From Gautieria morchelliformis (lineage: Eukaryota; Basidiomycota; Agaricomycetes; Gomphales; Gomphaceae), in NCBI GenBank assembly GCA_015179125.1, contig WHVA01000094.1, positions 1-64,000 on the forward strand: DNA of 64,000 nt, written 5' to 3'. The translations under genes were made by a program, and so were the position numbers. The notes below the pieces were generated by a model. It worked only from the letters and a program-made list of their open reading frames with translations. It was not told where the DNA came from and ran no database searches. Positions 29,241-64,000 of the stretch are shown here, one piece after another; positions within the stretch are counted from its first letter, which is position 1, and each line of letters starts with the position of its first letter.

Positions 29241-29384
29241 TCTTTGCAGCTCAGGCATGTACACAAGACGAGTCGTCGGTCAGCTTGCCTCTAACATGCA
29301 TTTGCGAGTTAGAAGGCGAACCAGACTTAATACACATAAGAATTACTTACCACTCTCTCCGAGGCTGCGGCCTTGCGAGCTTGG

Positions 29385-32138: not shown

Positions 32139-32467
32139 GGCGCTCTGTGGGAGTCGAGTGGTCAGACACCCTGGTATGAGGAATACGGGCCGGGATACTC
32201 ACGGAAGTTGGCCACTGGGGTCATGGGGGAGTTGACAGGGAGCTGCTGGTACTTGACGGCGAGCCTGTGGAGCTAAGCGAAAAGGCGCGATTGAAGAACA
32301 GGGTCAGCGGATGCTTCGAAGCCCGGGGCAAGTTCATATGGAAGACGAGTGCCAAACCAAGAGAGGCTGAAGTGTCTGTGGTGCGTGGTGTTGTCGATGG
32401 TGCAGCGCAGCAAGCCGCCTATTATGAATCGGCATAACCTGACCACGTTCAACTTGCCTTACCAACA
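32111..32467. other. No gene seen; likely promoter region of the SAM-like protein gene
   Basis: 357 bp between the inverted-repeat arm and the start codon at 32468. No clear TATA box. An AACTTGCCTTACCAAC stretch directly precedes the ATG. Confidence 0.3.
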
Positions 32468-39984: not shown

Positions 39985-40973
39985 TATCATGTATTAGTGA
40001 ACACAGCAAATGCCTGAATAGCTTGTGCAAAGAAGTATGCCGTTCGGCGAATAGGATGAACCAATAAATGTTCAGAAGGTAAGAGAGATGCCTGAACAGA
40101 GCTCACCCTATCTACAGTCATAGCGAAGTAGCCTGTGACACTTGACAATGTAACGTGCAAGGTGTCATGGAAAGGTTGTTCAGCAGCAACAATCCTTCGC
40201 CGGCGAAGGTGCTCCTTCGGAGCCCTTTGCTGACAGCACTGATAATATTATGAAGACTAAGGTAATGAAGGTGAAGTACGAAAACTCACCAGTGGTGCTT
40301 AAGTCCTCCTCTGGTTGACGATATAAATCTATAGGAGAGGGCTCAAGACGATAGTCACAGTGAGGTCAAGTTTTTCACAAGATAGATGTATGATAATTGA
40401 ACTGGGGAATATACATGTGAATGTAAACTACTTATATCAAATGCTCATATGATATCAGCGAATAGGGAAGAGGCCGTCATGAGTCAGGGTTGGATAGGGG
40501 TGCACAGTTGGGATACAAATAGATGAAACACATACACAATAGAATGAAAGAGGAGTGCGAACATGAAATGACGGGGAGGAAAGAGGGTGAAGGTACCTAT
40601 GTACGAAAACACGCCTTGTGACCTGCATATATGTTACTCTGCACGGGCTCTTTGTCTGCTGGGTTGATCCCACACGATCTACGGGTAGGGCATTCCACGA
40701 ATGCATTCCAGCCATACGAACACCTACAGGGGTGGAGTCGGGAAGATGATAACCATCATGCTGGGTAAAGGAGGTCGATCCTGTTTGATGGCGTGCCTGC
40801 TGGTGAATGATGCAAGTAGTGAATGGTCGCTTGGCGAATGCAGTGAAGAGGGAATGGAGCGAACATAGAGGAGGAGTGGTGGAAGGGAAGGGCGAACTCA
40901 GGCGAACATGCAGGAGGAGCGGTGAAGGGGAAAGTAGGGATATCTGGGCAAGGGAAATAGACGGGTCATGACA
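39985..40973 (+). mobile_element. Solo LTR (TGTCA...TGACA family, copy 4), 5' end missing
   Basis: Matches copies 1-3 from the motif ATCATGTATTAGTGAACAC to the terminal TCATGACA at 40973. About 30 bp of the LTR start are missing, and the sequence joins directly to the inverted-repeat arm, so no target duplication can be read. Confidence 0.75.
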
Positions 40974-42033
40974 AAATTATAGCCAGGGGCACAAGGATCA
41001 ACAACCTATATGCGTACATGGCCCAACCGTCCATGAAACCCAAACCCAAGAAGGCCCTCTATTCTGAAAAACCCAATCAATTGACATTATGGCACCACAG
41101 ACTAGCACACACTGCCACGTCAACAATTCAGAAGATGTGGAAGCAACAGACAGGCTTCAGTTTACCAAAGATCAGTGGTTAAGAGGAGCTAAGTATATGC
41201 ATCAACTGTCCCTTCAGAAAACATATGTGCTCACCATTCAAAAACATTGAAGACATACCAGAGAAAATCGGGGATATAGTATCATCAGATCTATGTCGCC
41301 CATTTGAAACATCAATTGGCAGATACATATATTTCATCACATGGATCAACCACACCACTCGGTATGCAACCATTGACTTCCAGAAGGATAAAGAATGTAC
41401 AACCATCACAAAATCATTCAAGGAGTATATTGCATGGCTAAGGACACAAAGAAAGGCAGAAGTAAGGAGAATAAGGAAGGATAACAGGGGAGAATACACT
41501 GGGAAGGGATTTGAGGGTATATGCAGTGAGCTCGGGATCATTCACAAAACTATGACTCTTCACACACCAGACCATAATGGAATTGCTGAGAGATACAACA
41601 GAACTCTGCAAGAAGGAGCACTCACCCTACAGAACTATGCAGGACTCAGCAAACGATTCTGGGTATCAGGTGTACACCAGTCAACTTCATCAAAAACTGA
41701 ATATTACACACAAAAATCAACAAGTCACCTTATGAGGCCTTTTGGAAGACTAAGCCTAGGCTTGACTGGCTACGCATATATGGATCAAAATGTTGGGCAC
41801 TGATCCCAAGAGCCACAAGGAAGAAAGGAGAATACAAATTGATTGAAGGAATTTTTGTGGGCTATTTTGACAACTCCAAAGCTTACAAGGTGTGGATACC
41901 TCACACTCAAACACTGATGAAGTCCAGAGACGTTGTATTTGACAAATTAAAACACGCTGGACACACTACACTATACGTAGCTGAGGAGGATGACGACCCT
42001 TACCTATGGAGGATAATCATAATGGTCATGTGA
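40974..42033 (+). mobile_element. Ty1/copia fossil, integrase region
   Basis: Starts in the pre-integrase domain (LWHHRLAHT, near 41090) and continues into the integrase core (DIVSSDLCRPFETSIGRYIY, VRRIRKDNRGEYTGKGFEGI, TPDHNGIAERYNRT) and the downstream EGIFVGYFDNSKAYKVW block that ends at 42033. Gag, RT and LTRs are not attached. It is a broken piece, with a few breaks. It could be from the same copia family as the RT/RNase H piece at 23.6-24.9 kb, but the parts do not overlap so this cannot be tested here. Confidence 0.85.
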
Positions 42034-43824: not shown

Positions 43825-44388
43825 GCGCGGCGGCGCCTCACGAGGGGGATAAAAAGAAAGCTAGCCAGTGCCGGTTGCCTCTGGGAAACGCAGCCGCCCA
43901 TCAAGCGAGACCCCCAAGCTTACACTTCGTTGGGTGCGACCGACGTGCGATGGGGCGTGTTGAATGACGGTGCCACGCGTTGTGTGACAACGCGTTGCGG
44001 TGCAGATCAGTGGGGGCGCGAGCGCTTCAAATGGTAGTTGCCTTGATGCCGGGCGGCACCAGGCCGGTGCACCGTGTATTACTGGTCGATGGATGTCCCC
44101 GACTTGATGAGGTCTCTTTGGCAGGCTTCAACTTCAGACCCGTTCACACGTCCTGTCCGAACATGAGGCTTCCTTTTGATTGATTTACCCCCTGAACGCC
44201 AAGTGGAACTCCTGTACTGAAATGATCCTGATCCACGCCATGCTAGATACGGTTTTGCGATCCGGCGAATGAGGTGTATCTATCGCTTCATGAAGCCTGA
44301 GAAGAGGAGAGTAATACCTTTATGGCTGCTCGCTGTCTTATATTAGCATCGCTGGCTATAAGAAGTGCTCGAATACTTCAAATTGCCC
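43825..44388. other. Left flank of the tandem array
   Basis: From about 44100 the sequence aligns with 53950-54370 and 59680-60095, the corresponding part of the other two units (for example ATGAAGCCTGAGAAGAG and GGCTATAAGAAGTGCTCGAA). It therefore marks the left limit of recognisable unit homology. No gene; likely the promoter of the DUF6533-type gene. Confidence 0.55.
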
Positions 44389-46108
44389 ATGATGTCAAGT
44401 CTCGGAGGGCTTGAAGCCCTGGGTCTGGCCATTTTTAAAAATCGAATTGCTGCGGTAGGTATTAATTCGCCGAGTGCTGAAGCCGTTTGCGCTGACCAGA
44501 GTCCTCTAGAGCTTGGACCGTACGTCGAACTTAGTACCATCCCAGCGACCTCTTAACAAATCCTTATTTCAAGTTGCTAGCATTGTCATTCTGGTGAGCA
44601 TAACGCCGCCAATGCGCATGTCGTCCAAATAAGACAACGTTGTGAACCAGATTTATGATTACCTCCTGACTGTCAAATTGGAGATAGAACTTGTCTGGGG
44701 AACACCATGGAGTATCGGGAGGATCCTCTACATGTTAACACGCTATAGTGTATTTGTCGACTCGTTGATGTTGGCGTATTGTGCGCGTATTTAATTGGCC
44801 TAATCGCTTTAGACTGACATATTGTCCAAGTCCACTTCGCGAGCGGGCAATCTGTGTCGGCAAGGACGGTGAATAGATTCGAATGACCTTTTTTTTTCGC
44901 AGCGAGTGCTGAACTCTCGATCTTACAGTGCTCCCTCGTATATCAAATTTCAGGCTGTAAGTCTCTGAGATCGAGTGCGAAATTAACTTTAAAACAGTCA
45001 TTGCAGGGTTTATATTCTGGGGTGGATGTCTGGCAGAAAGTAGGAATTGGCAGGCTTTTATTAGCCGGGTACTAATATCATTCTTTTAGTTGTTCTGATA
45101 TTCAGGACATGGGCTATCTGGCGCCAGGCACGCAAAGTTGCCTTCGGACTTCCTATCCTATTGGTTATTGTTGTGGTTCCACTCGTATACCTGACCAGAA
45201 TTGGACTTACTTCCGTCTCATGTCTGTGCTGGTTTGTTTCTCTCAAAGATTGTGTCCCAGCTCATAGTGTCATACGTAGTCGCAGATGTTACGACACTCC
45301 CAATACCACACCTCCCAAGCTGCTTTATTACCAGGAACGATGATATCACCTTTTTGTGGGATTATATTATTATAGTGAGCTTCGAGACTGGTGAGCGATA
45401 AGCCTGGCATGCGCTGCAGCTTGCTAACATCATAACTTCCGGTCGCATTATAGTTATCCTAGTTCTCACTCTCATTCAAGGTGTCCAACATTGTAGGTAG
45501 TTCATGGCGGTTCCCAGCAGTTGAACCCTGAGCCACGTTTCAGATCGGCATACTACGTCAAGTTTAGTCTCAACACTGTATGCGGATGGTATTCTATATC
45601 CTCTACTCCAGCGTTCAGGGAGTTGACAGTGGCCAGGTATACTGTATTATGTTTATCTTCTCATGCTGTCGGTTGCGAATGTTGTGTTTCTTGCGTCCGT
45701 CGAGGTTAGAGGCATATCATCTACTCTCAATGGGTCTCACTAAGCCCTCTTGCGTTTAAGAAAACAACCGGGGCGACATTGGTTCTGTCAGTTGGTCTCT
45801 GCGGACGTGCCTAAGTTAATTGATCACTTACCACCTCCATCTGATGCAGAATGCAACGGGTTTTTCACGCCATATTACCGGGGCGTATACTACTTCATCT
45901 TAGGATGGCCGCAGTACGGGACCGAAGATCCGTATCTTTACCGCAACTGACCACCATGTTCCGGATCTCACTACCTACCGAATTTTCCACAGACATGATA
46001 GGACGTGGAACATGGCTTATAGATCCAGAGGCTGGTCCTAGACCCGAAGCGACGATCAACGACGGCAGCCAGACTGTCAGAGGACACGCTAACAATGGCG
46101 CGGCATGA
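44389..46108 (+). CDS. DUF6533-type seven-helix membrane protein
   Basis: Basidiomycete membrane protein of the DUF6533 type; function unknown, receptor-like topology. Segments in order, joined by short GT-AG introns: MMSSLGGLEALGLAIFKNRI, a KSLFQVASIVIL helix, YDYLLTVKLEIELVWGTPW (the DUF6533 signature with LT...E-LVW), GRILYMLTRYSVFVDSLMLA, CSLVYQISGWFIFWGGCLAE, VLIFRTWAIWRQARKVAFGL with its RTWAIW motif, LLVIVVVPL, HLPSCFITRNDDITFLWDYI, VLTLIQGVQHC, LYADG then ILYYVYLLMLSVANVV, and C-terminal RVFHAILPGRILLHLRMAAV to the stop TGA at 46106. About ten introns; I found no obligatory frame break, but the last junctions (45690-45850) are uncertain. Units to the right keep only its first and last exons. 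Confidence 0.7.
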
Positions 46109-47291
46109 TCACGATCGCCTCCGGGGTTATTAATCTGGGTGGAAATTGTGTGGACGTGTATATATCCCTCGGCAGGAATAGACACTGCAAGTATTGGACA
46201 TGATGGGTTCCCCGCAAGAACATGTCGCCATGGTTTTTCGTGCACTCACGGCTCTTGTTGCTCTACCGGCCCTGGTGCTCATCTCGCCCTGGGTCGCGAA
46301 GGGCGCGATTGAGCACGAGGGCCAGGATGCCGCGGCGTGGACACGCACACGTCTGTGCTCGCGTTCCTCGCGAAGCTGGGGGACCTCGACTTCTTGACGT
46401 ACCGCGTCGCGTGGTCCGCGGCGTTCGAGCACCTATTTTGGACGCGAAGAAGGACACGCCGCAGACGCTTCCTGGGCCGGTGAACTTCTGAGGCGGGGAG
46501 GTTGTATTCGATTTCTGTGGTTGGATTGGGACGGGACAAGCCGCTTCAAGATGGGCTCCGAGTCGTTTTGTGTACTACGTCTAACGGTCTACGAACTACG
46601 ATCAAAACACATGACGTGAATGTGCTACGAAGAACTCCCTCGGATTGCACATCCCATCTCTTCCGCTCTCCAAGAGCAAGTCAATACGTCTGTTCTGTAT
46701 TTCGATGGACTAGAAACGTCTTCCCCCAGCAGCGCACGCAAAACCGGTCAGATCATTACATAAGCTGCTCGCGTGTGAATCTTTCCTCACGTAACATGCT
46801 GGATACAGTCACGAGCGGACGTGCGCGCTGAGTGCCTGTCACCGCCTCGGCCCCATATCAGCCGCCCATATAAATGCTCGATCGTATTACATATTTTGCA
46901 GCGCCGACTGATTGCTTGATTGCTCTTGCTACGGTATGGACATGCACTGACAGCCATAGCTACAGCGCACAGGCATGTGGCACTGCAGCGTAGTAGCACC
47001 GCGAGCGCTGCGCCCACGAGCTTTACGGTAACTACTAGGGACAAAGCCCTCACTATAGATCAAGCAGCATGACAGACGTTGACAGTTGATGCAAATCACT
47101 CACTTCCTCTAATATACACGATGAGCTTCTAATGATGCTACCAACCAAACGACGAGGTAACGCATGTTAAAGTACCATTTTATGCAAAGATTAGAAACGT
47201 CGCAACGAACCGTTGGGCATAACCACAGCCACAGCATGTCCGAGTCTGGGATAGGTAACTGTCACGAAAAGGAATTTCCATACTACATGTA
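46109..47291. other. Unrecognised conserved segment with a short hydrophobic ORF
   Basis: Around 46200 a plus-strand frame starts MMGSPQEHVAMVFRALTALV and continues ALPALVLISPWVAKGAIEHE, a signal-anchor-like N-terminus. The same start is kept at 55008 and 60733 in the other units. Further coding-like sequence (LAFLAKLGDLDFLTYRVAWS) follows in another frame in this unit only. It may be a gene for a small secreted or membrane protein that has decayed; I do not recognise it. The part from 46850 to 47290 shows no coding signal. Confidence 0.35.
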
Positions 47292-48769
47292 TCAGCGAAT
47301 GTCCTGCACATCGCGCAATGATTCTGGGGGGGCCACATCTGAGTGGATGGCAAGGACTTCCGTATCGAGAGCCCAATTCGACTCAGCCTGACTCGGAGTG
47401 GAGCGGGGCTGTTTTGAACCGAAATGAATGCAAGGAAACCAAACTTGCAGTATGTCCTACACCCAATCAATAATCATTTCCGCCTCATGAGCAGGACAGT
47501 AATTGAAGTGGACTTACGCGCTGCAGACCAAGTAGCAAGAACCCGAGGAGAGGGACTTGGCCAAGGGCATACGTCAGTGGTGTGCGAAAGAGACTGGAAA
47601 GCTTGCGTGACGCTCACAAAGAGATTCCCCAATACTCATTATATCTTCCATGATCATAGTCGCATTCGAATCTGGGTTCGTATCAAGCAGGCCAAGCCAC
47701 GTCGCGAGAATGCTTAGAGAAACATCACCGTGCAGTCAGTTTCATTCTTCGAGGCATCCGAAGAGAAAACATACACGGCAAAGAGCAGTCGAAACGAGCA
47801 GAAAACAGACAGGCGCACAAGCACAGAGAGGCTCATGATGCTGCCCATATTGACTTGTCGAAATACACGACGATAGCTAACAAACGTAACCACCAAAAGG
47901 ACTGGAAAAAGAAACCATTAATCGCAGCTTAGCACGAAAACTGATCGGGGTAACAACTGACTATCCCAAATACACGTGAGGACGACCAGCGAAAGATCCA
48001 CGTAGTCCATGGCTCTGAGCAGATCGTTGCTGTGTGTTGGGCTGATGCCAAAAAGCTGGCACTGACACAAAGGGGATAGTCAGCGAGCGTGCCAAAAAAA
48101 AGCTCGCCGCACCCACAAGAGGGACTATCCCCATAGCATACGGCGTGACTAGAAGCTTTTTGTCGTAATTCAATGGACCTCAATTCTCGGTAGAAGGTGT
48201 GATATCTCACCGCGAAGGTCCGTAGCTTCGTTGTCCATGCCTTTGCATCACTGAAAGCACCTCGCATTTGAAACCAAAGCTGGGTAAGACATTAGCGGGA
48301 CACTTTCATCTACAGATCACACGTACATGGATGACGAGGTTGAGGGTGGCCGTCAGCGCGCTGCCATTCAATATTACCATCAGGAGGAGAACGACGCCAG
48401 TGAGCATGGAAGTGGCATTATTGATCGACTCGATGCTCACACCAGCCTCATGGAATTGACCAGAGTATTGAGTATCATGTCCACCCCAATGGTTTCGTCG
48501 CTGGCTTGAGTGAAAGCCATGTACAGGACCACATCCCTTTTCCGCAGCGCCTCAGCAGTTAACCGTGGATTGAGGAGGTCACTAAGCACGCACGTGAAGA
48601 TCATGACTGCCGTATACATGAGGTACGTCCACACGAAATTAAAGAAAACAGAATGGCGGCGCATGTTCTCCGAGTCAGAAAGCACGATGGTGAACAGCAA
48701 GGCCGACAGCGATACAAAGCCCAGGAGCTGCAGCACAAACAAAACGGCGTGAACGGCTGGAAACCCCAT
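47292..48769 (-). pseudogene. Seven-helix GPCR-like gene, tandem copy A
   Basis: Paralogue of the gene at 12563-14029. It starts MGFPAVHAVLFVLQLLGF at 48769 and runs to the stop at 47292 after SLRDVQDIR. Helix 2 (HSVFFNFVWTYLMYTAVMIF), the SYRR basic loop region and VRLSVFCSFRLLFAVYVF-like helix are kept. In the middle (about 48070-48090) all three tandem copies share a 2-nt length difference from the 12.5-kb copy that shifts the frame before the fifth helix, so they are probably decayed unless splicing differs there. It is head to head with the kinase copy at 49318, 549 bp between starts. Confidence 0.55.
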
Positions 48770-48822
48770 TGCACCAAGTCGACGTCGCGCGGAACGAGGT
48801 TCATCTTCGACTTTCTAGCATT

Positions 48823-48837
48823 GTCGTTTAAATACGC
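48823..48837 (-). promoter_or_regulatory. Conserved TATA-type promoter motif, copy A
   Basis: GTCGTTTAAATACGC as read on the plus strand, about 54 bp upstream of the copy A start. Same motif as at 12501-12515. Confidence 0.55.
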
Positions 48838-49317
48838 ATGGGGTATTATCCAAGCGATGATAGGTGATCACTACGAATCATAAGCGGTGGCTGCTGGGCG
48901 CGCGGAGGGTTCAGAACATACGTACTAGTTCGGAATCAACACTCTCCTGGCGCCGTTACTGCGGAAATCGACTATGTACTACTACATACTGTATCAGCTT
49001 AGAGCGGCGCGAATGAAGCTGGGCCCCGGCGCCAAGCGAGGCTCTTGTGACGGAAAAAACTATTCGAATCGATCTGGACAGTACTGCAGCAACTCCGGGC
49101 ACTTACTGTAAGTACATTATGCACCGGAAAATCGGAGCCCAAATCGCTGATAATAATTACATAACAGGAGAGCTGATTTTGGGGTGTTCCGCTCGATTAA
49201 CTGCACTGGAATCTACTAAGTACTATAGGGATAATCAGTCCAATTCAGCAACCTAGACGCGGAGAACCCCAACGTGCGACTTGCGATACTTAATCTCTAC
49301 AGGTCTCTCAGTATACC

Positions 49318-50485
49318 ATGCAGACATGGCCGTTCGTCGTAAGCTGCTCATTATTCGGAGAAATTTGACTTTGAGCTGCTTCTCTACTAGTATAGCCATT
49401 GAATGCTTTCTCGTCGCTCATCATCGGGGGCTTCATCAAAATCAACCGTGTCCAGCTCCCAATAACGCTATATAAACATCTCAAAGCCTGCAAAATTAGT
49501 TCTAGCCACGGTAGAATGCTCCCGCCTTCACTAGGCAACCTCTGTCTCCATTGTTTCCTTAGAACCGGAACGACTCGGCTGTGGCAGAGTGTTTTCGGTG
49601 TACCCGCTTAGCATTGACGACACCCACCAGTACGCTCTTCCATCCCTTGTAATAAAAGTCGCTGCTCGGCGCCGTTCTGACGACCTGGGGCATGGTTCTA
49701 CGAAGAGATGGAGGATATTCAGGGAGTAGCCATCGCACGCTGCTATGGGTTCTTTACTGTGGAAATCGAGTCGAATAGCGAGGTATTGGATGGGGCAGAG
49801 TCTGATGCGGATTACGACGAGGAAGTAGACGTTCGGGACGAGGACCGCCAAGGTGAGGATAACGACGACTCGGACGAGCCATGGAAACCCCATGCATTGA
49901 CAGATTACTCTCTCCAGATGATCTGGGGATAAGAGAACCCACCTCAGGCTGGGGAATTTTATTCAAGCGCAATGAGGAATGCGAGAAGAGGGAGACGTTA
50001 AGACAAGAACATCGAGATCAACGAGACCGAATCATCAAAGCAACTCATGCCGATCCAGCCTCAGTGTGCAACAGCATGCAATGACAAGACATTTATTTCA
50101 GTCTTGGTTTTAGAAAGGCTCGGGGACGTGATACCCATAGGTGTTCCGTTGGAAGCACTCAAGTTCGTCTGGCCAGCACTACTATGCATGCTTCTGAACA
50201 TCGTTTGTTATGCAGACCGGATGTTCACGAAATATACAGCGACATGAGTCGCTTCGGTATCGAACACATGGACATCCGATGGAGAAATATCCTGGCGGCA
50301 CCCGCAGCACAACAGAGTACTGTCTGCCCTGATCACGGACACATGCATCGATGGCGTGTGGTTGACTTTGATCTCTCGAGAAAGTCAAACCATTCCCATT
50401 CTCATATCGAATCTGCTTCAGGCTCTTGACTTCGGACCATACTGGATGGATTGGAAGGGGATACGTCGTCGAGCCTTGGGACTAG
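49318..50485 (+). pseudogene. DFD-type kinase-like gene, decayed copy 1
   Basis: Aligns with the genes at 52337 and 58032 from the start (ATG then TWPFV, and GTAAGC donor) to the stop context GACTAG at 50483-50485. It lacks the segment around the glycine-rich loop in frame, has a shortened N-lobe and several frameshifts; recognisable pieces include EDIQGVAIARCYGFFTVEIE and the HMDIRWRNIL catalytic loop near 50265. The host gene is dead in at least four places. It is the oldest kinase copy of the array, judged by divergence. Confidence 0.75.
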
Positions 50486-50966
50486 ATGCATTCTTTGTCT
50501 CTCAACGCGAAATGCTTTCGAAGGTTTTCTTCTTTTTCACAAGAACTGAATCATTTTGCGCCCAACTCTTCGCAGACAGAGCCGGACTTTACGATGTCAC
50601 GAGTTATGTGCCGCCTCGTGGTGTTACAGTATTCTGACCTTTATCCTCGAGCTACAGGCCCTCCCGAACTAACTTCTCCAGTAGGCTGGTTACTCATCGT
50701 GGGCTTGTGAGCGGCACCTGTCACGATACCTATAACCCACACTGTGACGCTTCCTATCGACCAATCTATATCCTCTATTCAAAGCAGCAGAAATGCTCCC
50801 AACTTCTCGTATATATAATTCCATATATTTGGCAGCGGCTCATTTATTGCACCATCTTTGTTCCCAAACTACCAGCCCTACCGATCTATAACGAAGTCTT
50901 CGCGTTTCATGATTATCAAACCCTCGCCATATTTCAGGGATCTGTAGCATACAAGATAAAAAGCTA
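50486..50966. other. 3' flank of kinase copy 1
   Basis: Up to about 50812 it still resembles the 3' flanks of the other kinase copies (53560-53880, 59260-59580). Homology ends there, just before the nuclease-like gene, which marks the junction of the array with inserted or ancestral sequence. Confidence 0.5.
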
Positions 50967-52171
50967 CTACCACAATGACTCCCTATCCTGAACGGGACAA
51001 AGGGAATGTGGGACAAAGCGCAATCCCGCTCCCTCATCGATAGCTGCGAAGCACATCCCTATAAGTGCCCTGTGTACAGATGCATCCCCATTGAAGTCGT
51101 GGATTTCACTTAATGTCAGCTCGTTCTGGCCGGTTCTAACGAAGATGACAATCTTCCGCCCGTTTGTGCAAGCCCCCCACTTGGCTTGAAAGAAGTGTAG
51201 TTCACCCCATAGCTGTTCGAAAGAGAAGAAAAACGTGAGTTTAACGTACGCTTCACGGTTTCAGTTGCATACCTGTTTAAGCAACTTTCCAGGCTGCAGA
51301 GGAGCTTTCCAATTAAAGATTCCTGAGACCCTCTGAGCGCCTGCAGTACTGAATATGTCTGTAAAGACATCATCTGGATAGGCCCACCACGTCTTCACTT
51401 CAATGATAGCTGCGTGGTCCCATTGTCGTGGGCTCTGGTAGAGAAGGAAGTCGGGAAATCCCGCATTGGTCTGTTCACCTGGGTTGCGATGAGCTTTTGG
51501 GCAACTTCGGCCCCACTGAGGATAAAATTGGGTCTGTGGAGGTTGACCAGCAGTGTTTGAATAGCGTGTCTGATAATGAGCATCAGTCCATGCTATTCTC
51601 CTTGCAAAACACAGAATGAATACCGCTAAGAGCATGTTGAGCAGCTCAATGATCTGAACATGAACTTCATCCTGAACTGATGGCTCGGACGTCATGGCCA
51701 CAGGCTTCCTCCGGTTATGTGCGACAAACCAGGCAAAAAGACTGTCAAGAACCTCGGCTTGCTGCCTCCCACTCGGGAAAGGTGTTGAATTGCCAAAACC
51801 CTGACCAGTATGAATGGTTAGGGGTAACCCAGGTACATTAGCTGGCTTTGCAACACCAGGGCCATTCGGCAAAGAGTAGACCACCAGGTTTTGCCACAAG
51901 GACCTGCATCGGCGGACATACCGGAGTCGCTCACCAAAAGGCATATTCTCAACTTGGGCAGCAGTTTTGGTAGCCGAAGCCCTGTTCTGATCACTGCTGC
52001 TTCCAAGCGTTTGCAAGCTAAGCTCAATTGATGTCCACCCAATGGTGCTGGAAAGGGAAACTGATGCCACTGCTGTTGAATGAGAGGTGCATCCTGCCAT
52101 TGAAGGGCTTGTGGTAGACCTGCAACTATCTGGTCAGGCATGTATAGCAAATGGTGACCTGGCTGAGCCAT
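50967..52171 (-). CDS. PD-(D/E)XK nuclease-like protein
   Basis: Two exons are clear. The upstream one runs to 51273 and the second is 51212-50967, with a 60-nt GT-AG intron (51213-51272). The catalytic signature is FPDFLLY followed 13 residues later by AIIEVKTWWAY, giving the D...E-x-K triad of the PD-(D/E)XK fold. After the intron come QLWGELHFFQAKWGACTNGR and KIVIFVRTG, the usual next strand and helix. The frame with this domain opens at an ATG at 52100 (357 aa). A second ATG at 52171 starts a Gln/Pro-rich frame (MAQPGHHLLYMPDQ) that may be exon 1 joined by another intron. Agaricomycetes have many such proteins of unknown role; self/non-self or transposon-derived functions are guesses. It is head to head with the kinase at 52337 and single-copy in the array. 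Confidence 0.65.
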
Positions 52172-52336
52172 AGTGGTTTGGATCAAGAGTGGGGCTTCCG
52201 TACTTAAGAACTGGTACTACTATCTGGATGCGAAGGAAACCATTCCACAGTCCTCGCACACCGCTAGGACCCCGGAATGGGCACGTTCGATTGGCACGTT
52301 CGTCTTACATAAACCACTGACCATCTCAGCCTAACC

Positions 52337-53539
52337 ATGCAGGCGGGGCCGTTCGTCGTAAGCTGCTTATTACTTGGAGAAACTTGCCTTTAAGATGCTT
52401 CTCTACAGCCATCGAATGCTTTCTCGTCGCTCATCATCGACGGCCTTCTCAAAATCAACGGTGTCCAAATTCCATTGACGCTATCTAAAACCATCTCAAG
52501 GCCGGGAAAACCACTTCTAGCCAGCGCAGAATGCTTCGCCAATCCCGGCGGTCTACTACCTGTTCGTCCGCCCTCCAAACTCCCGCCTCCTGGTAACCTC
52601 TGTCTCCATGTTTCCTTACAACCAGAACGACTCGGCTATGGCAGAGTGGGTTCGGTGTACCCGCTTAGGATTGACGACACCAATCAGTATGCTCTTCCAT
52701 CCCTTGTAATAAAAGTCGCTGCTCGGCGCCGTTCTGACGACCTGGCTCGTGAGGCCTGGTTTTACGAAGAGATGGAGGATATTCAGGGAGTAGCCATCGC
52801 ACGCTGCTATGGATTCTTTACCGCTGAAATCGAGCAGAATAGCGAGGTATTGGATTGGGCAGAGTCTGATGCGGATTGCGACGAGGAGGAGGTAGACGTT
52901 CGGGGCGAGGACAGCCCAAGTGAGGATGACGGCGACACGGACGATACATGGGACCTCTATGCATGGACAGATTCTGATGATCTGGTGATGGAAGAATTCA
53001 GCTGGGAAGTGGTACTTAACCGCAATGATGAAAGGCGGAAGTTAAGGGAGAAGTTACGACAAGAACGTCGAGATAAACGTGCCCGAATCATCAAACCAAC
53101 TCGTGCCGATCCGGCCTCAGTGCGCGACCGCAGCGACAAGACCTTTCTTTCAGTCTTGGTTTTAGAAAGACTCGGGGACGTGATGCCCATAGGTGTTCCG
53201 TTGGAAGCATTCAAGTTCGTCTGGCCAGCTCTAACTACGCATGCTTCTGAACATCCTTTGTTATGCAGACCGGATGTTCGTGAAATATACAGCGACATGG
53301 GTCGATTCGGTATCGAACACATTGACATCCGATGGAGAAATATCTTGGCGGCACCTGCGACAGACCAGAGTATTGTCTGCCCTTATCACGGACACAAGCA
53401 TCAATGGCGTGTGGTTGACTTCGATCTCTCGAGAAAGTCAAACCATTTACATTCTGGTATCGAAACCGCTGCGAATGGATGGCTTCGGACTATACTGGAT
53501 GGATTGGAAGAAGGATACGTCGTCGAGCCTTGGGACTAG
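52337..53539 (+). CDS. DFD-type protein kinase-like protein, copy 2
   Basis: Two exons: 52337-52357 (MQAGPFV) and 52409-53539, intron 51 nt, 383 aa. The small first exon decides the start; the long exon has no ATG at its 5' end. Domains: glycine loop GYGRVGSVY (about residues 82-90), ATP-binding Lys in LVIKVA (109), helix C AREAWFYEEME, a 60-residue acidic insert (DEEEVDVRGEDSPSEDDGD), a charged linker, then catalytic loop HIDIRWRNIL with Asp and Asn, and VVDFDLS where DFG is DFD. Length and order fit a family of agaricomycete kinase-like proteins. Retained Lys, Asp, Asn and metal Asp suggest possible activity. Substrate unknown. Confidence 0.8.
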
Positions 53540-54373
53540 ATGCATTTTTGTCTCTCAACGCGACATGCATCGGAAAGATTTTATTCACTTTTCACGGGAA
53601 CTCGATCATTTCCGGGCAACTTGGTATATTCATTGTAGATAAACGCCGTCTTTAGGATGTCACAAGAGTCGAAATATGCATGTGCCGCCTGCCAGATTAT
53701 GGTGTTACAGCGTCCCGACCTTTATCCTCGAGCTACTGGCCCTCCGGATGTAGGCTGATTACTCATCATGGACTTGTGAGCGGCACCTATCATGATACCT
53801 ACACATCACAGACTGTGATGCTTCCTGTCCACTCATACTTGTCCTTTATTCACAGTCGCAGAAATGTCCCAACTTCTATGTTTGAGATCGGCGGCCAACT
53901 GTCGTAGTACAGTACAGGTCAGTTAGTACTCATGGTCATTGTTCCGTCCCGGCTGGCTAGGCTGCGTCGATGCCCGACATGGATGAGGACTAAGGTCCCT
54001 GCAGGCTTCAACTTTCTTCGAACATGAGAATATTTTACCTGGGCCTGCTCCCCGGAATGCCAAGTGGAATTTCTATACTGAAATGATGCACGGCATGCTA
54101 GATACGGGTTTGCCCTCTTCTTCCATCACACCACGGTCCGGCCTGGATACTGTGGGGATTCCTGGTAGGGGCGCATATAAATCTTTAGACTCAGTTTTGG
54201 CTTAGCTTGGCTTCTATGGCCTCATCCACATGCTTCTCTTCCGATCGTTGGCGAATGATGAGTATCTATCGCGTCATGAAGCCTGAGAAGAGAACAGCAA
54301 TACCTTTATGACTGCTCGCTGCTTCTAACTAACAGTCACAGGCTATAAGAAGTGCTCGAATGAATTGTCCTCG
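53540..54373. other. Kinase 3' flank and spacer of unit 1
   Basis: No gene. Nearly the same sequence recurs at 59244-60098. From about 53950 it aligns with the upstream flank of the DUF6533-type gene at 44100-44388. Confidence 0.5.
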
Positions 54374-54909
54374 ATGTCGAGTCTCGCAAACCTTGAAGCC
54401 TTTGGGTATGGCCATTTTTGAAAATCGAATTCCTGCGGTAGGTATTCCCTGAGTGCTGAAGCTTTTTGCGCTGACCAGAATCCTCTAGAGCTTTGCGTTC
54501 GTTGAGGTTAGAGGCATATCATCTACTCTCAATGGGACCCTCTAAGCCCTCTTGGGTTGAAGACAACAACCGGGGCTACATTGGTTCTGTCATTTGGTCT
54601 CCGTGGAAGTGCCTAAGTTAATTGATCACTTCCACCTCTATGTGATGGAGAATGCAACGGGTTTTTAACGCCATATTACCGGGGCGTATACTACTTCATC
54701 TTAGGATGGCAGCAGTACGGGACCGGAGACCCGTATCTTCACCGCAACCGACCACCATTTTCCGGATCTCACTACCTACCGAATTTTCTACAGACATGAT
54801 AGGACGTGGAACATGGCTTATAGATCCAGAGGCTGGTCCTAGACCCGAGGCGACGATCAGCGACGGTAGCCAGACTGTCAGAGGACACGCTTACAATGGC
54901 GCGGCATGA
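54374..54909 (+). pseudogene. DUF6533-type gene, internal-deletion remnant B
   Basis: Keeps exon 1 (ATG at 54374, MSSLANLEAF-like), its intron up to CTCTAG and the first bases of exon 2, then jumps to the 3' end (GTTGAGGTTAGAGGCATATC at about 54505) and the last exon (RVFNAILPGRILLHLRMAAV to the stop at 54909). Roughly 1.2 kb present in the intact copy at 44389-46108 are missing. The deletion ends are the same as in unit 2. Confidence 0.75.
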
Positions 54910-56046
54910 TCTACACGATGGCCTCCGGGATTATTATTTCAGGGTGGAAAATGTGTGGACGTGTATATACCCCTCGGCAGGAATAGACACTGCAGGTGCT
55001 GGATATAATGGGTTCCCCGCAAGAACATGTCGCCATGGTTTTTCGTGCGCTCGCGGTTCTCGTCGCTCTGCCGGCCTGGTGCTCATATCGCCGTGGGCAG
55101 CGAAGGGCGCGATTGAGCACGAGGGCCAGAATGCCGCGTCCACGCACACGTCTGTGCGAAGCTGGGGGACTCGACTTCGAGTGCCTCATTTTGGGCGCGA
55201 TGAGGGACACGCCGCAGACGCTTCCTGGGCCGGTGAACTTCTGAGGCGGGGAGGTTGTATTCAATTTCTATGGTTAGATTGGGACGGGGAGAAGCGGCTT
55301 CAAAATGTGCTGGTTTTGTGTGCATGCTGGATACAGTTGCATGCGGTATATGCCCAGGCACACAGGTTGCGCAAGAGCATCTGGCTCGTACGCCGGTGGG
55401 GCCAAGCGGGCGTGCGCGTTGAGTGTCTGTCACCGACTCGGACTCACCGTAGATGACCCGCCGCGCTCAGTACGGCACGTTCGATGCATGCACTTCAGTG
55501 CCCGGCGTTTCATATGGCACCGTTTTGCAGATATCTTGCTACGGTTGGGCAGCAGCTGGTCCAGCGCACAGGCGGGTGGCACGGCAATGTAGTCGCACCG
55601 CGGCGAGCGCTGCGCCCACGAGCTTTACGGTAATCACTAGTGACAAAGCCCTCACTATCGATCAAGTAGCATGCATGACAGACATTGACAGTTGGTGCAA
55701 GTCAGTCACTTCCTCTAATATACACGATGAGCTTCTGATGGCCACCAACCGAACGACGAGGTCACGCATGTTAAAGTATTCTTTGACGCAAAGATTAGAA
55801 ACTTTGTTAATTATTAGTGACAAAGCCCTCGCTATAGATCAGGCAGCATGTATCACAGTTGATGCAAATCACCCACTTCCTGCATGTAATATACACGGTG
55901 ATGCCACCAACCAAACGACGAGGTAACTCATGTCATTTTATGCAACGATGAGAAACGTCGCAAGGAACGTTTGGCATAACCATAGCCACAGCATGTCCGA
56001 GTCTGGGATAAGTAAACTGTCACGAAAAGGGTCCATACTGCATGTA
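54910..56046. other. Unrecognised conserved segment of unit 1, with duplicated 80-bp block
   Basis: Contains the MGSPQEHVAMVFRALAVLVA start (about 55008) and an open plus frame of 186 codons (54896-55456) with no known domain. At 55635-55790 and 55805-55920 a block containing GTGACAAAGCCCTC and ACCAACC.AACGACGAGG is present twice in tandem; the same doubling exists at 61355-61500 and 61530-61645, but unit A has one copy. Confidence 0.4.
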
Positions 56047-57495
56047 TCAGCGAATGTCCTGCACATCGCGCAATGATTCCGGGGTAGCCACACCTTAGTG
56101 AATGGGAAGGTCTTCGTCGAGAGCCGAATTCGGCTCATCTTGACTCCGAGTGGAGCAGGTCTGTTTTGCACCAAAATGAATGCAAGGAAACCAAACTTGC
56201 AATATGTCCTACACCCAATCAATAATCATTTACGCCTCATTAGCAGGATAGGAATCGAACACGACTTACGCGCTGCAGACCAAGTAGCAAGAACCCGAGG
56301 AGAGGAACTTGGCCAAGGGCATACGTCAGTGGTGTGCGAAAGACTGGAAAGCTTGTGTGAGGCTCACAAAGCGACTCTCCAATATCCGTTATATCTGCCA
56401 TGATCATAGTCGCATTCGAATCTGGGTTTGTATCAAACAGGCCAAACCACGTCACGAGAATGCTTAGAGAAATATCACCGCGCAGTCAGTCCTATTCTTC
56501 GAGATATCCGAAGAAAAACATACACGGCGAAAAGCAGTCGAAACGAACAGAACACGGAGAGGCGCACAAGCAGAGAGAGGTTCATGATGCTACCCATATT
56601 GACTTGTCGAAACATACGACGATAGCTAACAAACGTGATCACCAAAAGGACTGAAAAAGAAACCATTAATCACAGCATAGCACGAAAACTGACAACTGAC
56701 TATCCCAAATGCACGTAAGAACGACCAGCGAAAGAACCACGTAGTCCACGGCTTTGAGCCGCAAATTGAGGACTTTTGGGGTGAAGTCAAAAAACAGGCA
56801 CTGGCACATACGGGATAGTCAGCGAGCGTGCCGAAAAGAAAGCTCCCAGCACTCACAAGGGGGACTAGTCCCATGAAATAAGGCGTGATTAGAAGCTTTT
56901 ATCGTGATTCAATCGAGCTCAATTCTCGATCGAAGGTGTGATATCTCACCGCGAAGGTTCGTAGCTGCGTTGTCCGCGCCTTTGCATCACTGAAAGCACC
57001 TCGCATTTGAAACCAAAGCTGGATAAGACATTAACGGGACACTTTCATCTACAGATGACGCGTACATGGATGAAAAGGTTCAGGGTGGCTGTCAGCGCGC
57101 TGTTAATTCAAAATTACCATCAGGAGGACGACGCCAGTGAGTGGTGTTACTTATTAACTCGATGCTCACATGAACCTCATACAATCGACCAGAGTATCGA
57201 ATATGATGGCCACACCCAAGGTTTGATCAGTTTCAGCGAAAGCCATGAACAGCACCACATCCCTTTTCCCCAGTCGCCTCAGCAGTTAATTGTGGATTGA
57301 GAGGACTTGAAGCACGCACGTGAAGATCATGACTGCCGTATACATGAGGTACGTCGAGACGAAATTAAAGAAAACAGAGTGGCGGCGCATGCTCTCCGAG
57401 TCCGAAAGAACGACGGTGAACAGCAACGCAGACAGCGATACAAAGCCCAGGAGCCGCAGCACAAACATAGCGGCGTTAACGGGTGGAAACCCCAT
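56047..57495 (-). pseudogene. Seven-helix GPCR-like gene, tandem copy B
   Basis: Starts MGFPPVNAAMFVLRLLGF and ends after the SLRDVQDIR-like segment at 56047. Exons recover most helices: HSVFFNFVSTYLMYTAVMIF, ALTATLNLFIH, LLITPYFMGLVPLVSAGSFL, RMFRQVNMGSIMNLSLLVRL, ILVTWFGLFDTNPDSNATMI and PLLGFLLLGLQR. The 2-nt difference shared with copies A and C shifts the frame before helix 5 (DYVVLSLVVLTCIWD is out of frame), so function is doubtful. Divergent with the kinase at 58032; 536 bp lie between the two start codons. Confidence 0.55.
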
Positions 57496-57544
57496 TGCAC
57501 CAAGTCGACGTCGGGACGAGGTTCATCTTCGATTTTCTAGCATT

Positions 57545-57559
57545 GTCGTTTAAATACGC
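57545..57559 (-). promoter_or_regulatory. Conserved TATA-type promoter motif, copy B
   Basis: Same motif as at 12501-12515, 50 bp upstream of the copy B start, inside the shared divergent promoter region 57496-58031. Confidence 0.55.
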
Positions 57560-58031
57560 ATGCGGAAATCCAGAACTACAGTAGCGACTCGTCATAGATG
57601 ACCGCTACGAATCAAAAGCTGTGCACGGGAAGGTGAAGAACCTAGGTTCGGATCAGGACTCTCCCGGCGCCGTTCAATTGCTGTGGCCGAACCGACTACT
57701 CCATTGAGTTCCTCACGGTGACAGCTTGGAGCGCGAGCGGATAACGGGACGCCGCGGCAAGCGAGGCTGCGGCCGTGACGGAAAAAACTATTTGAAGGCT
57801 GGACACCGCAGCAACACCGGGCACTTATTGTAAGTACATTATGCACCGGAAAACCGGAGCCCAAGTTGCTGATAATAAGTAACAGGGGAGCCAATCATCA
57901 TTTTGGGGTGTTCCGCTCGATTATTGAACTGCACACTGGAACTAGTGATCAATATCCAATTGAGCAACCTAGAACCGCGGAGAATTCTAACGTGCGACTT
58001 GCGATAATCTCTGCAGGTCTCTCAGCACACC

Positions 58032-59243
58032 ATGCCGGCGGGGCCGTTCGTCGTAAGCTGCTCATTATTTGGAGAAACTTGCCTTTGAGCTGCTCTACAG
58101 CCATCGAATGCTTTCTCGTCGCTCATCATCGGCGGCCTTATCAAGATCAACGGTGTCCAGGTTCCATTGATGCTATCTAAAACCATCTCAAAGCCTGGAA
58201 AACCACTTCTAGCCAGCGCAGAATGCTTCGCCAATCCCGGCGGTCTACTACCTGTTCGTCCACCCTCCAAACTCCCGCCTCCAGGTAACCTCTGTCTCCA
58301 CGTTTCATTGGAACCGGAACGACTCGGCTATGGCAGAGTCGGTTCGGTGTACCCGCTTAGGATTGACGACAACAACCAGTACACTCTTCCATCCCTTGTA
58401 ATAAAAGTCGCTGCTCGGCGCCGTTATGACGACCTGGCTCGTGAGGCCTGGTTTTACGAAGAGATGGAGGATATTCAGGGAGTAGCCATCGCACGCTGCT
58501 ATGGATTCTTTACCGCTGAAATCGAGCAGAATAGCGAGGTTTTGGATTGGGCCGAGGCTGATGCGGATTGCGACGAGGAAGAGGTAGACATTCGGGGCGA
58601 GGACAGCCCAAGTGAGGATGGCTGCGACACGGAGGATACATGGGACCGCTATGCATGGAGAGATTCTGAAGATCTGGTGATGGAAGAATTCAGCTGGGAA
58701 GTGGTGTTTAAGCGCGAAGAGGAAAGGGACAAGTTAAGGGACAAGTTAAGGGACAAGATAAGACAAGAACGTCGAGATAAACGTGCCCGAACAATCAAAC
58801 CAACTCGTGCCGATCCGGTCTCAGTGCGCAACCGCAGCGACAAGACCTTTCTTTCAGTCTTGGTCTTAGAAAGACTCGGGGACGTGATGCCCATAGGTGT
58901 TCCGTTGGAAGCACTCAAGTTCGTCTGGCCAGCTCTAACTATGCATGCTTCTGAACATCCTTTGTTATGCAGACCGGATGTTCGTGAAATATACAGCGAC
59001 ATGGGTCGATTCGGTGTCCATCACATAGACATCCGATGGAGAAATATTTTGGCGGCACCTGCGACAGACCAGAGTATTGTCTGCCCTTATCACGGACACA
59101 AGCATCAATGGCGTGTGGTTGACTTCGATCTGTCGAGAAAGTCAAACCATTTACATTCTGGTATCGAATCCGCTGCGAACGGATGGCTTCAGACCATACT
59201 GGATGGATTGGAAGAAGGATACGTCGTGGAGACTTGGGACTAG
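58032..59243 (+). CDS. DFD-type protein kinase-like protein, copy 3
   Basis: Exons 58032-58052 (MPAGPFV) and 58101-59243 with a 48-nt intron give 387 aa. Glycine loop GYGRVGSVY near residue 83, Lys109, helix C Glu near 122, acidic insert, catalytic loop HIDIRWRNIL at 315-324, DFD at 348-350. Compared with copy 2 it has four more residues, due to a repeated RDKL unit in the basic linker (RDKLRDKLRDKIRQ). The ORF is intact over its whole length, and the two copies differ mostly outside the kinase motifs. It shares a 536-bp divergent promoter with the seven-helix copy B. Confidence 0.8.
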
Positions 59244-60098
59244 ATGCATTCTTTGTCTCTCAACGCGACATGCATCGGAAAGATTCTATTCACTTATGAG
59301 AACTCGATCATTTCCGGGCAACTTGATATATTCATCGTAGATAAACGCCGCCTTTAGGATGTCACAAGAGTCGAATTATGCATGTACCGCCTGCCAGATT
59401 ATGGTGGTACAGCGTCCCGACCTTTCTCCTCGAGATGGCCTCTGGATGTAGGCTGATTACTCATCATGGACATGTGAGCAGGACCTATCATAATACCTAT
59501 ATACCCATATCACAGACTGTGATGATTCCTGTCCACTCATACTTGTCCTTTATTCACAGTCGCAGAAATGTCCCAACTTCTATGTTTGAGACCGGCGGCC
59601 AACTGTCATAGTATAGTACAGGTCAGTTAGTACTCATGGTCATTGTTCCGTTTCGGCTGGCTAGGTTGCGTCGATGCCCGATATGAATGAGGACTAAGAT
59701 CTCTGCAGGCTTCAACTTCAGGCCCGCTCCCATGTCCTCTTCGAACATGAGAATATTTTACCTGGGCCTGTTCCCCGGAATGCCAAGTGGGATTTCTATA
59801 CTGAAATGATCTATGGCATGCTAGATACGGGTTTGCCCTCTTCTTCCATCGCACCATGGTCCGGCCTGGATACTGTGGGGATTCCTGTTAGGGGCGCATA
59901 TAACTTTTTAGACTCTGTTTTGGGCTTAGCTTGGCTTCTATGGCCTCATCCACATGCTTCTCTTCCGATCGTTGGCGAATGAGGAGTATCTATCGCGTCA
60001 TGAAGCCTAAGAAGAGAACAGTAATACCTTTATGACTGCTCGCTGCTTCTAATAGTTACAAGCTATAAGAAGTGCTCGAATACTTCGAATTGTCCTCG
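59244..60098. other. Kinase 3' flank and spacer of unit 2
   Basis: No gene; close copy of 53540-54373. Confidence 0.5.
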
Positions 60099-60634
60099 AT
60101 GTCGAGTCTTGCAGAGCTTGAAGCCTTGGGTCTGGCCATTTGTGAAAATCGAATTCCTGCGGTAGGTATTCCCCGAGTGCTGAAGCTTTTTGCGCTGACC
60201 AGAATCCTCTAGAGCTTTGCGTTTGTTGAGGTTAGAGGCATATCATCTACTCTCAATGGGTCCCATTAAGCCCTCTTGGGTTGAAGAAAACAACCGGGGC
60301 GACATTGGTTCTGTCATTTGGTCTCTGTGGAAGTGCCTAAGTTGTTTGATCACTTACCACCTCTATGTGATGGAGAATGCAACGGGTTTTTAACGCCATA
60401 TTACCGGGGCGTATACTACTTCATCTTAGGATGGCAGCAGTACGGGACCGGAGACCCGTATCTTCAGCGCAACTGACCACCGTTTTCCGGATCTCACTAC
60501 CTAGCGAATTTTCCACAGACATGATAGGACGTGGAACATGGCTTATAGATCCACAGGCGGGTCCTAGACTCGAGGCGACGATCAGCGACGGTAGCCAGAC
60601 TGTCAGAGGACACGCTTACAATGGCGCGGCATGA
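60099..60634 (+). pseudogene. DUF6533-type gene, internal-deletion remnant C
   Basis: Same structure as remnant B: exon 1 from the ATG at 60099 (MSSLAELEALGLAICENRIP), the short intron, then a jump to GTTGAGGTTAGAGGC and the last exon ending at 60634. Shared deletion ends show that the deletion happened before this unit was copied. Confidence 0.75.
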
Positions 60635-61756
60635 TCTACACGATGGCCTCCGGGATTATTATTTCAGGGTGGAAAATGTGTGGACGTGTATATACCCCTC
60701 GGCAGGAATAGACACTGCAGGTGCTGGATATAATGGGTTCCCCGCAAGAACATGTCGTCATGGTTTTTCGTGCACTCGCGGTTCTCGTCGCTCTACCGGC
60801 CCTGGTGCTCATATCGCCGTGGGCAGCGAAGGGCGCGATTGAGCACAAGGGCCAGAATGCCGCGTCCACGCACACGTCTGTGCGAAGCAGGGGGACCTCG
60901 ACTTCGAGTGCCTCATTTTGGGCGCGATGAGGGACACGCCGCAGACGCTTCCTGGGCCGGTGAACTTCTGAGGCGGGGAGGTTGTATTCAATTTCTATGG
61001 TTAGATTGGGACGGGGAGAAGCGGCTTCAAAATGTGCTGGTTTTGTGTGCATGTCGGATACAGTTGCAAGCGGTATATGCCCAGGCACACAGGTTGCGCA
61101 AGAGCATCTGGCTCGTAAGCCGGTGGGGCCAAGCGGGCGTGCGCGTTCAGTGTGGACTCACCGTAGATGACCCGCCGCGCTCAGTACGGCACGTTCGATG
61201 CATGCACTTCAGTGCCCGGCGTTCCATATGGCACGGTTTTGCAGATCTCTTGCTACGGTTGGGCATGCACTGGCAGCTGGTCCAGCGCACAGCGGGGTGG
61301 CACGGCAATGTAGTCGCACCGCGAGCGCTGCGCCCACGAGCTTACGGTAATCACTAGTGACAAAGCCCTCACTATCGATCAAGTAACATGCATGACAGAC
61401 ATTGACAGTTGATGCAAGTCAGTCACTTCCTCTAATATACACGATGAGCTTCTGATGATGCCACCAACCGAACGACGAGGTCACGCATGTTGAAGTATTC
61501 TTTGACGCAAAGATTAGAAACTTCGTTAATTATTAGTGACAAAGCCCTTGCTATAGATCAGGCAGCATGTATCACAGTTGATGCAAATCACCCACTTCCT
61601 GCATATAATATACACGGTGATGCCACCAACCACACGACGAGGTAACTCATGTCATTTTATGCAACGATGAGAAATGTCGCAAGGAATGTTTGGCATAACC
61701 ATAGCCACAGCATGTCCGAGTCTGGGATAAGTAAACTGTCACGAAAAGGGTCCATA
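60635..61756. other. Unrecognised conserved segment of unit 2
   Basis: Corresponds to 54910-56046. The MGSPQEHVVMVFRALAVLVA start (60733) is open for 66 codons here; a different frame is open for 201 codons (60752-61357). Neither shows a domain, and the frames differ between units, so conservation of a protein is doubtful. Confidence 0.4.
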
Positions 61757-63216
61757 CTACATGTAGCAGCGAATGTCCTGTTCATCGCGCAATGATTCCG
61801 GGGTAGCCACACCTTAGTGAATGGGAAGGTCTTCGTCGAGAGCCGAATTCGACTCATCTTGACTCCGAGTGGAGCGGGTCTGTTTTGCACCAAAATGAAT
61901 GCAAGGAAACCAAACTTGCAATATGTCCTACACCCAATCAACAATCATTTACGCCTCATTAGCAGGATGGCAATCGAACACGACTTACGCGCTGCAGACC
62001 AAGTAGCAAGAACCCGAGGAGAGGAACTTGGCCAAGGGCATACGTCAGTGGTGTGCGAAAGAGACTGGAAAGCTTGTGTGAGGCTCACAAAGCGACTCTC
62101 CAATATCCGTTATATCTGCCATGATCATAGTCGCATTCGAATCTGGGTTTGTATCAAACAGGCCAAACCACGTCACGAGAATGCTTAGAGAAATATCACC
62201 GCGCAGTCAGTCCTATTCTTCGAGATATCCGAAGAAAAACATACACGGCGAAAAGCAGTCGAAACGAACAGAACACGGAGAGGCGCACAAGCAGAGAGAG
62301 GTTCATGATGCTACCCATATTGACTTGTCGAAACATACGACGATAGCTAACAAACGTGATCACCAAAAGGACTGAAAAAGGAACCATTAATCTCAGCATA
62401 GCACGAAAACTGACAACTGACTATCCCAAATGCACGTAAGAACGACCAGCGAAAGAACCACGTAATCCACAGCTTTGAGCCGCAAATTGAGGACTTTTGG
62501 GGTGAAGTCAAAAAGCAGGCACTGGCACATACGGGATGGTCAGCGAGCGTGCCGAAAAGAAAGCTCCCAGCACTCACAAGGGGGACTAGTCCCATCAAAT
62601 AAGGCGTGATTAGAAGCTTTTATCGTAATTCAATCGAGCTCAATTCTCGATAGAAGGTGTGATATCTCACCGCGAAGGTTCGTAGCTGCGTTGTCCGCGC
62701 CTTTGCATCACTGAAAGCACCTCGCATTTGAAACCACAGCTGGATAAGACATTAACGGGACACTTTCATCTACAGATGACGCGTACATGGATGAAAAGGT
62801 TCAGGGTGGCCGTCAGCGCGCTGTTAATTCAATATTACCATCAGGAGGACGACGCCAGTGAGTGGTGTTACTGATTAACTCCATGCTCACATGAACCTCA
62901 TACAATCGACCACAGTATCGAATATGATGGCCACACCCAAGGTTTGATCAGTTTCAGCGAAAGCCATGAACTGCACCACATCCCTTTTCCCCAGTCGCCT
63001 CAGCAGTTAATTGTGGATTGAGAGGACTTGAAGCACGCACGTGAAGATCATGACTGCCGTATACATGAGGTACGTCGAGACGAAATTAAAGAAAACAGAG
63101 TGGCGGCGCATGCTCTCCGAGTCCGAAAGAACGACGGTGAACAGCAACGCAGACAGCGATACAAAGCCCAGGAGCCGCAGCACAAACATAGCGGCGTTAA
63201 CGGGTGGAAACGCCAT
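61757..63216 (-). pseudogene. Seven-helix GPCR-like gene, tandem copy C
   Basis: Near-identical to copy B (MAFPPVNAAMFVLRLLGF start). The C-terminus reads past the copy A/B stop because TGA became TGC, ending four codons later at 61757. The same middle frame difference is present. Start codons of this gene and of kinase copy 4 are 536 bp apart. Confidence 0.55.
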
Positions 63217-63265
63217 AGCACCAAGTCGACGTCGGGACGAGGTTCATCTTCGATTTTCTAGCATT

Positions 63266-63280
63266 GTCGTTTAAATACGC
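63266..63280 (-). promoter_or_regulatory. Conserved TATA-type promoter motif, copy C
   Basis: Same motif as at 12501-12515, 50 bp upstream of the copy C start. Confidence 0.55.
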
Positions 63281-63751
63281 ATGCGGAAATCCAGAACTAC
63301 AGTAGCGACTCGTCATAGATGACCGCTACGAATCAAAAGCTGTGCACGGGAAGGTGAAGAACCTAGGTTCGGATCAGGACTCTCCCGGCGCCGTTCAATT
63401 GCTGTGGCCGAACCGACTACTCCATTGAGTTCCTCACGGTGACAGCTTGGAGCGCGAGCGGATAACGGGACGCCGCGGCAAGCGAGGCTGCGGCCGTGAC
63501 GGAAAAAACTATTTGAAGGCTGGACACCGCAGCAACACCGGGCACTTATTGTAAGTACATTATGCACCGGAAAACCGGAGCCCAAGTTGCTGATAATAAG
63601 TAACAGGAGAGACGACCATCATTTTGGGTGTTCCACTCGATTATTGAACTGCACACTGGAACTAGTGATCAATATCCAATTGAGCAACCTAGAACCGCGG
63701 AGAATTCTAACGTGCGACTTGCGATAATCTCTGCAGGTCTCTCAGCACACC

Positions 63752-64000
63752 ATGCCGGCGGGGCGTTCGTCGTAAGCTGCTCATTATTTGGAGAAACTTG
63801 CCTTTGAGCTGCTCTACAGCCATCGAATGCTTTCTCGTCGCTCATCATCGGCGGCCTTATCAAAATCAACGGTGTCCAGGTTCCATTGACGCTATCTAAA
63901 ACCATCTCAAAGCCTGGAAAACCACTTCTAGCCAGCGCAGAATGCTTCGCCAATCCCGGCGGTCTACTACCTGTTCGTCCACCCTCCAAACTCCCGCCTC
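63752..64000 (+). CDS. DFD-type kinase-like gene, copy 4, cut by the window end
   Basis: The first 249 bp of another kinase copy. Exon 1 (63752-63771) has one G/C base fewer than copy 3 in the GGGGCCG run, which shifts the frame unless a different start is used. The intron (GTAAGC...CTACAG) and the exon 2 start (SNAFSSLIIGGLIKINGVQV) match copy 3. It shows that the array goes on beyond the window. Confidence 0.7.

Follow-up and report, generated by a model that had tools for sequence, protein, structure and literature searches.

The DNA analysed here, referred to as the window, comprises the first 64,000 nucleotides of one contig (C1048:1-64000) of the Gautieria morchelliformis genome, which is assembled to 122 Mb in 1,113 contigs. 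Its right-hand third consists of tandemly repeated units made up of three kinds of genes, a kinase-like gene (K), a DUF6533-type membrane gene with seven helices (S) and a second seven-helix type (T). Unit 1 (44.1–50.8 kb) contains S on the forward strand at 44392..46400, for which the exon model is uncertain, T on the reverse strand at 47292..48769, open throughout its ten-exon model, and K1 on the forward strand at 49318..50485, a degenerate kinase-like copy with the stops and frame breaks of a pseudogene. An open kinase-like gene, K2, follows on the forward strand at 52337..53539. This fourth K start has no T opposite, the DNA upstream of it is unrelated to the T-K spacer, and it was absent from the first-pass annotation of this DNA. 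Unit 2 carries an S remnant without the DUF6533 body (54000..55311, forward, with a junction at 54494), T at 56095..57495 on the reverse strand and an open K at 58032..59243 on the forward strand. In unit 3 there is again an S remnant without the DUF6533 body (59738..61038, forward), followed by T at 61814..63216 on the reverse strand and a forward K which starts at 63752, crosses the window end at 64000 and runs on to contig position 64950.

The stretch from 52324 to 58281 is found again at 58020–64000 with 95.2% identity over 6,016 aligned bp, which defines two forward tandem repeat copies, copy A at 52324..58019 and copy B at 58020..64000, the latter reaching the window end. Unit 1 matches units 2 and 3 mostly at 80–86%, with one 140-bp piece at 74%, and is an older relative of both. 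The start codons of the divergent T and K genes, all six of them ATG, are located at 48769/49318, 57495/58032 and 63216/63752, i.e., 549, 537 and 536 bp apart in units 1, 2 and 3, exactly where the first-pass annotation had placed them. The spacers between them measure 548 bp in unit 1 (48770..49317, 75% identical to that of unit 2), 536 bp in unit 2 (57496..58031) and 535 bp in unit 3 (63217..63751, 98.8% identical to that of unit 2). The threefold pairing described earlier is real as a tandem repetition, but all three pairs go back to a single arrangement by copying and are not independent repeats, as the 95.2% identity of units 2 and 3 illustrates. Similarly, the start regions had been called preserved, and the ATG codons are indeed present, but the K starting at 63752 is one base short in its first exon and the K starting at 49318 is degenerate. 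Only the middle pair, that of unit 2, has a K which is open from its start codon.

The S gene of unit 1 contains a DUF6533 motif at 44642–44752 (Pfam PF20151, E=1.7e-11, 44.5 bits against a cut-off of 24.1). Its body of 1,150 bp (44541–45690) had no match at units 2 or 3 and is next matched, partly, at C1048:65957-66776, so that the assignment of a second seven-helix family to the repeated unit holds for unit 1 and fails for the other two. The window copy did not appear in the list of a genome search for DUF6533 in which 150 of 637 candidates were scored.

Multi-copy spliced models of T yielded ten exons and about 312–317 residues depending on one splice site; the exon models were derived with a home-made script, and the copies vary at the 3' boundary of intron 7. 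Both unit 2 and unit 3 have an in-frame stop at residue 300 of 316, so that their T proteins are 15 residues shorter at the C-terminus. A relative of T on contig C192 has seven hydrophobic segments, some of them long, in a simple hydropathy analysis, which makes T a putative seven-helix membrane protein. When T of unit 1 and a C192 copy were compared to Pfam by hmmscan, no family scored above its cut-off, including DUF6533 and DUF6534 (PF20152), the STE3 pheromone receptor family (PF02076) gave no match, and a search of NCBIfam did not yield a match for T either.

The K model consists of an exon of 7 codons, an intron of 48–51 nt and about 380 further codons (a 48 nt intron and 380 codons in unit 2); the K of unit 3 has a first exon one base shorter than that of unit 2, and its long frame is otherwise open. 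The stretches GxGxxG, VIK, HxDxxxxN and DFD, which correspond to the kinase motifs of the ATP loop, the lysine, the catalytic aspartate and metal binding, are invariant in all eight aligned K sequences, seven of which are near copies. K resembles the families Pkinase (PF00069) and Pkinase_fungal/FunK1 (PF17667) in keeping kinase-like motifs and differs from them in that it reaches 12.2–13.9 bits against a Pkinase cut-off of 31.7 and has no match to PF17667. Nothing in NCBIfam was above a cut-off for K. A K profile searched against PDB sequences gave three weak matches with no kinase among them, a single K sequence gave one weak and unrelated match, and the structure predicted from an eight-row alignment had a mean pLDDT of 32. 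Two families of the cassette, T and K, are thus without a curated Pfam family.

Pairwise dN/dS among nine K sequences ranged from 0.10 to 0.74, with 0.32–0.45 against the C217 copy. For T, eleven sequences yielded 0.44–0.78 in most pairs, 0.09–0.34 among three copies of the unit 1 type, and 1.21 and 1.02 for the copies starting at 57495 and 63216 against that at 103193. Because of these two high ratios, and because dN comes close to intron divergence in some pairs, constraint on T is weak. Taken together, the values for K and T fit weak to moderate constraint, and as the frames are open and dN/dS is mostly below 1, both genes probably encode working proteins.

The K genes of the array have a mixed history. 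In blocks of 75 bp the K of unit 2 is 0.91–0.99 like K2 from position 58096 onward (one block 0.83) and 0.72–0.96 like K1, whereas upstream of 58020 the same unit is 0.60–0.92 like the K1 spacer and 0.37–0.55 like the DNA upstream of K2. Units 2 and 3 carry K2-type coding sequence behind a K1-type upstream region, and their K is thus of mixed origin. In a K tree of 19 rows, chosen from fetched contigs out of 64 loci, four K1 copies form one group (100/99) and copies from pairs are interleaved with K2 copies, the K2 label requiring four changes and the pair label three. In a T tree comprising 18 of 54 loci, the T copies of units 2 and 3, C13, C1047 and C615_15148 group together (100/100), and their K genes are scattered in the K tree; the T of C523 nests inside the clade of paired T copies. 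Since the two trees disagree, and since units 2 and 3 are 98.2% identical in T and 98.8% in the spacer but only 94.5% in K, T and K were not inherited as fixed pairs.

A genome search with T exon 1, for which all 59 candidates were scored, gave 55 matches at 54 loci. The K search, with 107 of 131 candidates scored, gave at least 119 matches, many of them fragments, which correspond to at least 64 loci after matches less than 700 bp apart had been merged. Contig C192 holds 12 of the T exon 1 matches in mixed orientation between about 32 and 173 kb, with no K match listed. Truncated K copies with 92% identity to the window K occur on contigs C196, C482 and C437; their matches all begin at query position 215, as if a single truncated copy had given rise to them.

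Divergent neighbours within 1.5 kb were found at 10 of the 54 T loci and at 10 of the 64 K loci found. With this number of pairs chance adjacency is not the issue, but all ten lie on six contigs (C1048, C615, C1047, C13, C283 and C602), which are related by duplication or, for some, probably by allelism. Insertions seem to have separated the partners of three further pairs, at C1048 88579/95008, C615 35238/44793 and C602 40036/44765. K>S><T is also the order at C432, C359 and C725, although in the last case T lies about 12 kb away from S. No divergent K was seen beyond the T start in the 3.0 kb read at C432, the about 2.2 kb up to the contig end at C359 or the 2.0 kb at C725. C523 has a T with up to 428 bp of spacer and no K in the 1.6 kb read beyond the T start, and the genome-wide K list from the 107 of 131 candidates scored added no K in any of these four stretches. 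Conversely, hydropathy revealed no divergent upstream membrane gene in the about 0.5–1.6 kb upstream of four K loci without T.

Part of this copy number could be due to the assembly, in which both haplotypes of a dikaryon and broken repeats may be represented. We regard such an inflation as possible though doubtful; it would be compatible with a cluster evolving by duplication and loss and would simply reduce the number of independent copies. C1048:94437-100068 and C615:44249-49851 are 97.3% identical with the same order, C1048:43417-49488 and C283:9965-3916 are 94.3% identical, and C13 and C1047 are short contigs of 16 and 20 kb consisting largely of array sequence. Units 2 and 3, on the other hand, lie on one contig and their K genes differ (94.5%), and they are therefore not a simple misassembly of one unit. 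As some of the contigs are probably alternative haplotypes, the independent copy numbers are smaller than those counted.

As the first-pass annotation had noted for the TATA-type motif, the box TATTTAAA and a leader are found upstream of T in all three units. In unit 2 the TATTTAAA box lies near T and K1-type DNA lies next to K. The same box and leader also accompany T copies without K, slightly altered in those of C192 and C1037, and together with the unrelated DNA upstream of K2 this suggests that the spacer behaves as two parts, a T-side box with leader and a K-side upstream region.

In another reading T and K would form a co-regulated receptor-kinase module, in which T would sense, K would act downstream, the shared spacer would ensure co-expression, and the array would diversify recognition. 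Ten adjacent pairs with similar spacing are in line with this, as are the reading frames of unit 2, where both genes are open except for the T C-terminus, the dN/dS of about 0.3–0.78 in most K and T comparisons and the invariant kinase-motif residues in the eight aligned K sequences. These points have to be weighed against the 44 of 54 T loci and 54 of 64 K loci found that are unpaired, the exchange of K relative to T in the trees, the dead K1 beside an open T in unit 1, and the TATA-type box retained in T copies without K. A true module of this kind is hence unlikely; co-regulation is not supported in view of the K-less T copies with the same box, the unrelated DNA upstream of K2, the discordant trees and the three K>S><T loci that show no divergent K in the 2–3 kb read beyond T, and co-function of receptor and kinase, though possible, is unsupported by the sequence data. 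The suggestion of amplification and fast evolution in the first-pass annotation is borne out by the tandem duplication, the decayed copies, the exchange of K coding sequence and the many genomic copies.

The findings are best explained, with a good degree of probability, by a recombining birth-and-death tandem cluster of K-S-T cassettes in which the divergent pairs are the junctions of units. Birth-and-death multigene clusters combine tandem copies, pseudogenes, gene exchange and partial deletions. The array has all of these, but it differs from such clusters in that three unrelated families share one cassette. In a head-to-tail series of K>S><T cassettes, each T would come to face the K of the following unit, which would account for a near-constant spacing of about 540 bp inherited by the copies. 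The K2-type coding sequence would have been joined to the upstream DNA of the decayed K1 when adjacent K copies underwent unequal crossing-over or gene conversion, and a separate deletion would have taken the S core from two units. T would then be an orphan seven-helix receptor-like protein and K a kinase-like protein, each presumably with its own proximal promoter. This reading is favoured by the 6 kb repeat, the exchange of K, the disagreement of the K and T trees, the low share of paired loci among the T and K loci found, the K>S><T loci at which no divergent K was seen, the box at T copies without K and the missing DUF6533 region of units 2 and 3. Against it count the conservation of the spacer, 98.8% between units 2 and 3 and 75% to unit 1, the shortness of the 1.6–3.0 kb read beyond T, the low-confidence structure model of K together with its lack of a curated family, and possible losses at some of the loci without K. 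Up to 428 bp of spacer persists at the T copies of C359 and C523 and overlaps a part that lies upstream of some K copies; as C523 in addition nests in the paired clade, the missing K at some of these loci may reflect a loss and not an original absence. A variant in which the K-S-T cassette would be a lineage-specific sensing module, with two seven-helix proteins sharing one kinase-like partner, and in which recombination would repeatedly restore an open K opposite T so that pairs are kept while copies decay, is distinctly improbable. The array illustrates how a repeated gene pair, though probably a duplication junction, can resemble a conserved module, and its orphan seven-helix and kinase-like genes offer a concrete case for tracing gene exchange.

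Among titles and abstracts of the open-licence literature no paper describing this array was found, and a plasmid search with 2 kb of it gave no match. SNB1 of Coprinopsis cinerea is reported to be a DUF6533 protein with seven predicted helices which is required for fruiting-body patterning (PMC10949477). S of unit 1 shares the DUF6533 domain (PF20151) with this protein; the array departs from it in that the S core is gone in units 2 and 3 and in that T is without a DUF6533 match. DUF6534 proteins are treated as candidate GPCRs of Agaricomycotina (PMC12842992). Like them, T shows seven hydrophobic segments and matches none of the classic GPCR families, but it has no match above the cut-off to PF20152 or any other Pfam family. 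Because one DUF6533 member has a developmental role in Coprinopsis (PMC10949477), arrays of this kind could be relevant to mushroom development or sensing.

Spread of the genes, the pair included, as cargo of transposable elements would be another source of copies. Transposon-like frames are present in the left 43 kb of the window, with Pfam matches that are all below the curated cut-offs, and truncated K copies occur on many contigs, position 215 or 156 of the query being the starting point of several. No inverted repeats of 60 nt or more were, however, found within 43000–64000, and the breakpoints seen in the array either vary or fall close to the start of K, which makes transport as cargo very improbable.

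Outside the array, sequence comparison located a lone diverged T copy at about 12457–13992 on the forward strand, 78% identical to the array copies and with a frame break in one exon. It sits amid the transposon-like frames of the window, and no K match was found near it. With regard to the subtelomeric position raised as a possibility in the first-pass annotation, the sequence (TTAGGG)2 does not occur in the 64-kb window, and the assembly has exact (TTAGGG)4 at a single site, which is on contig C60. Frames resembling an integrase core, zf-RVT, Transposase_21 and DUF4939 extend over 17455–41800, each below its Pfam cut-off, the integrase core frame at 41225–41800 just so. Dispersed repeats, about 69–89% identical to each other, are found at 2959–3968, 8624–9310, 9305–10177, 14475–15417, 29380–30418 and 39982–40974. 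Two GC-rich repetitive stretches are located at 30876–32202 and 39226–39984, and within them 30876–31621 matches 39234–39984 in inverted orientation with 94.8% identity.
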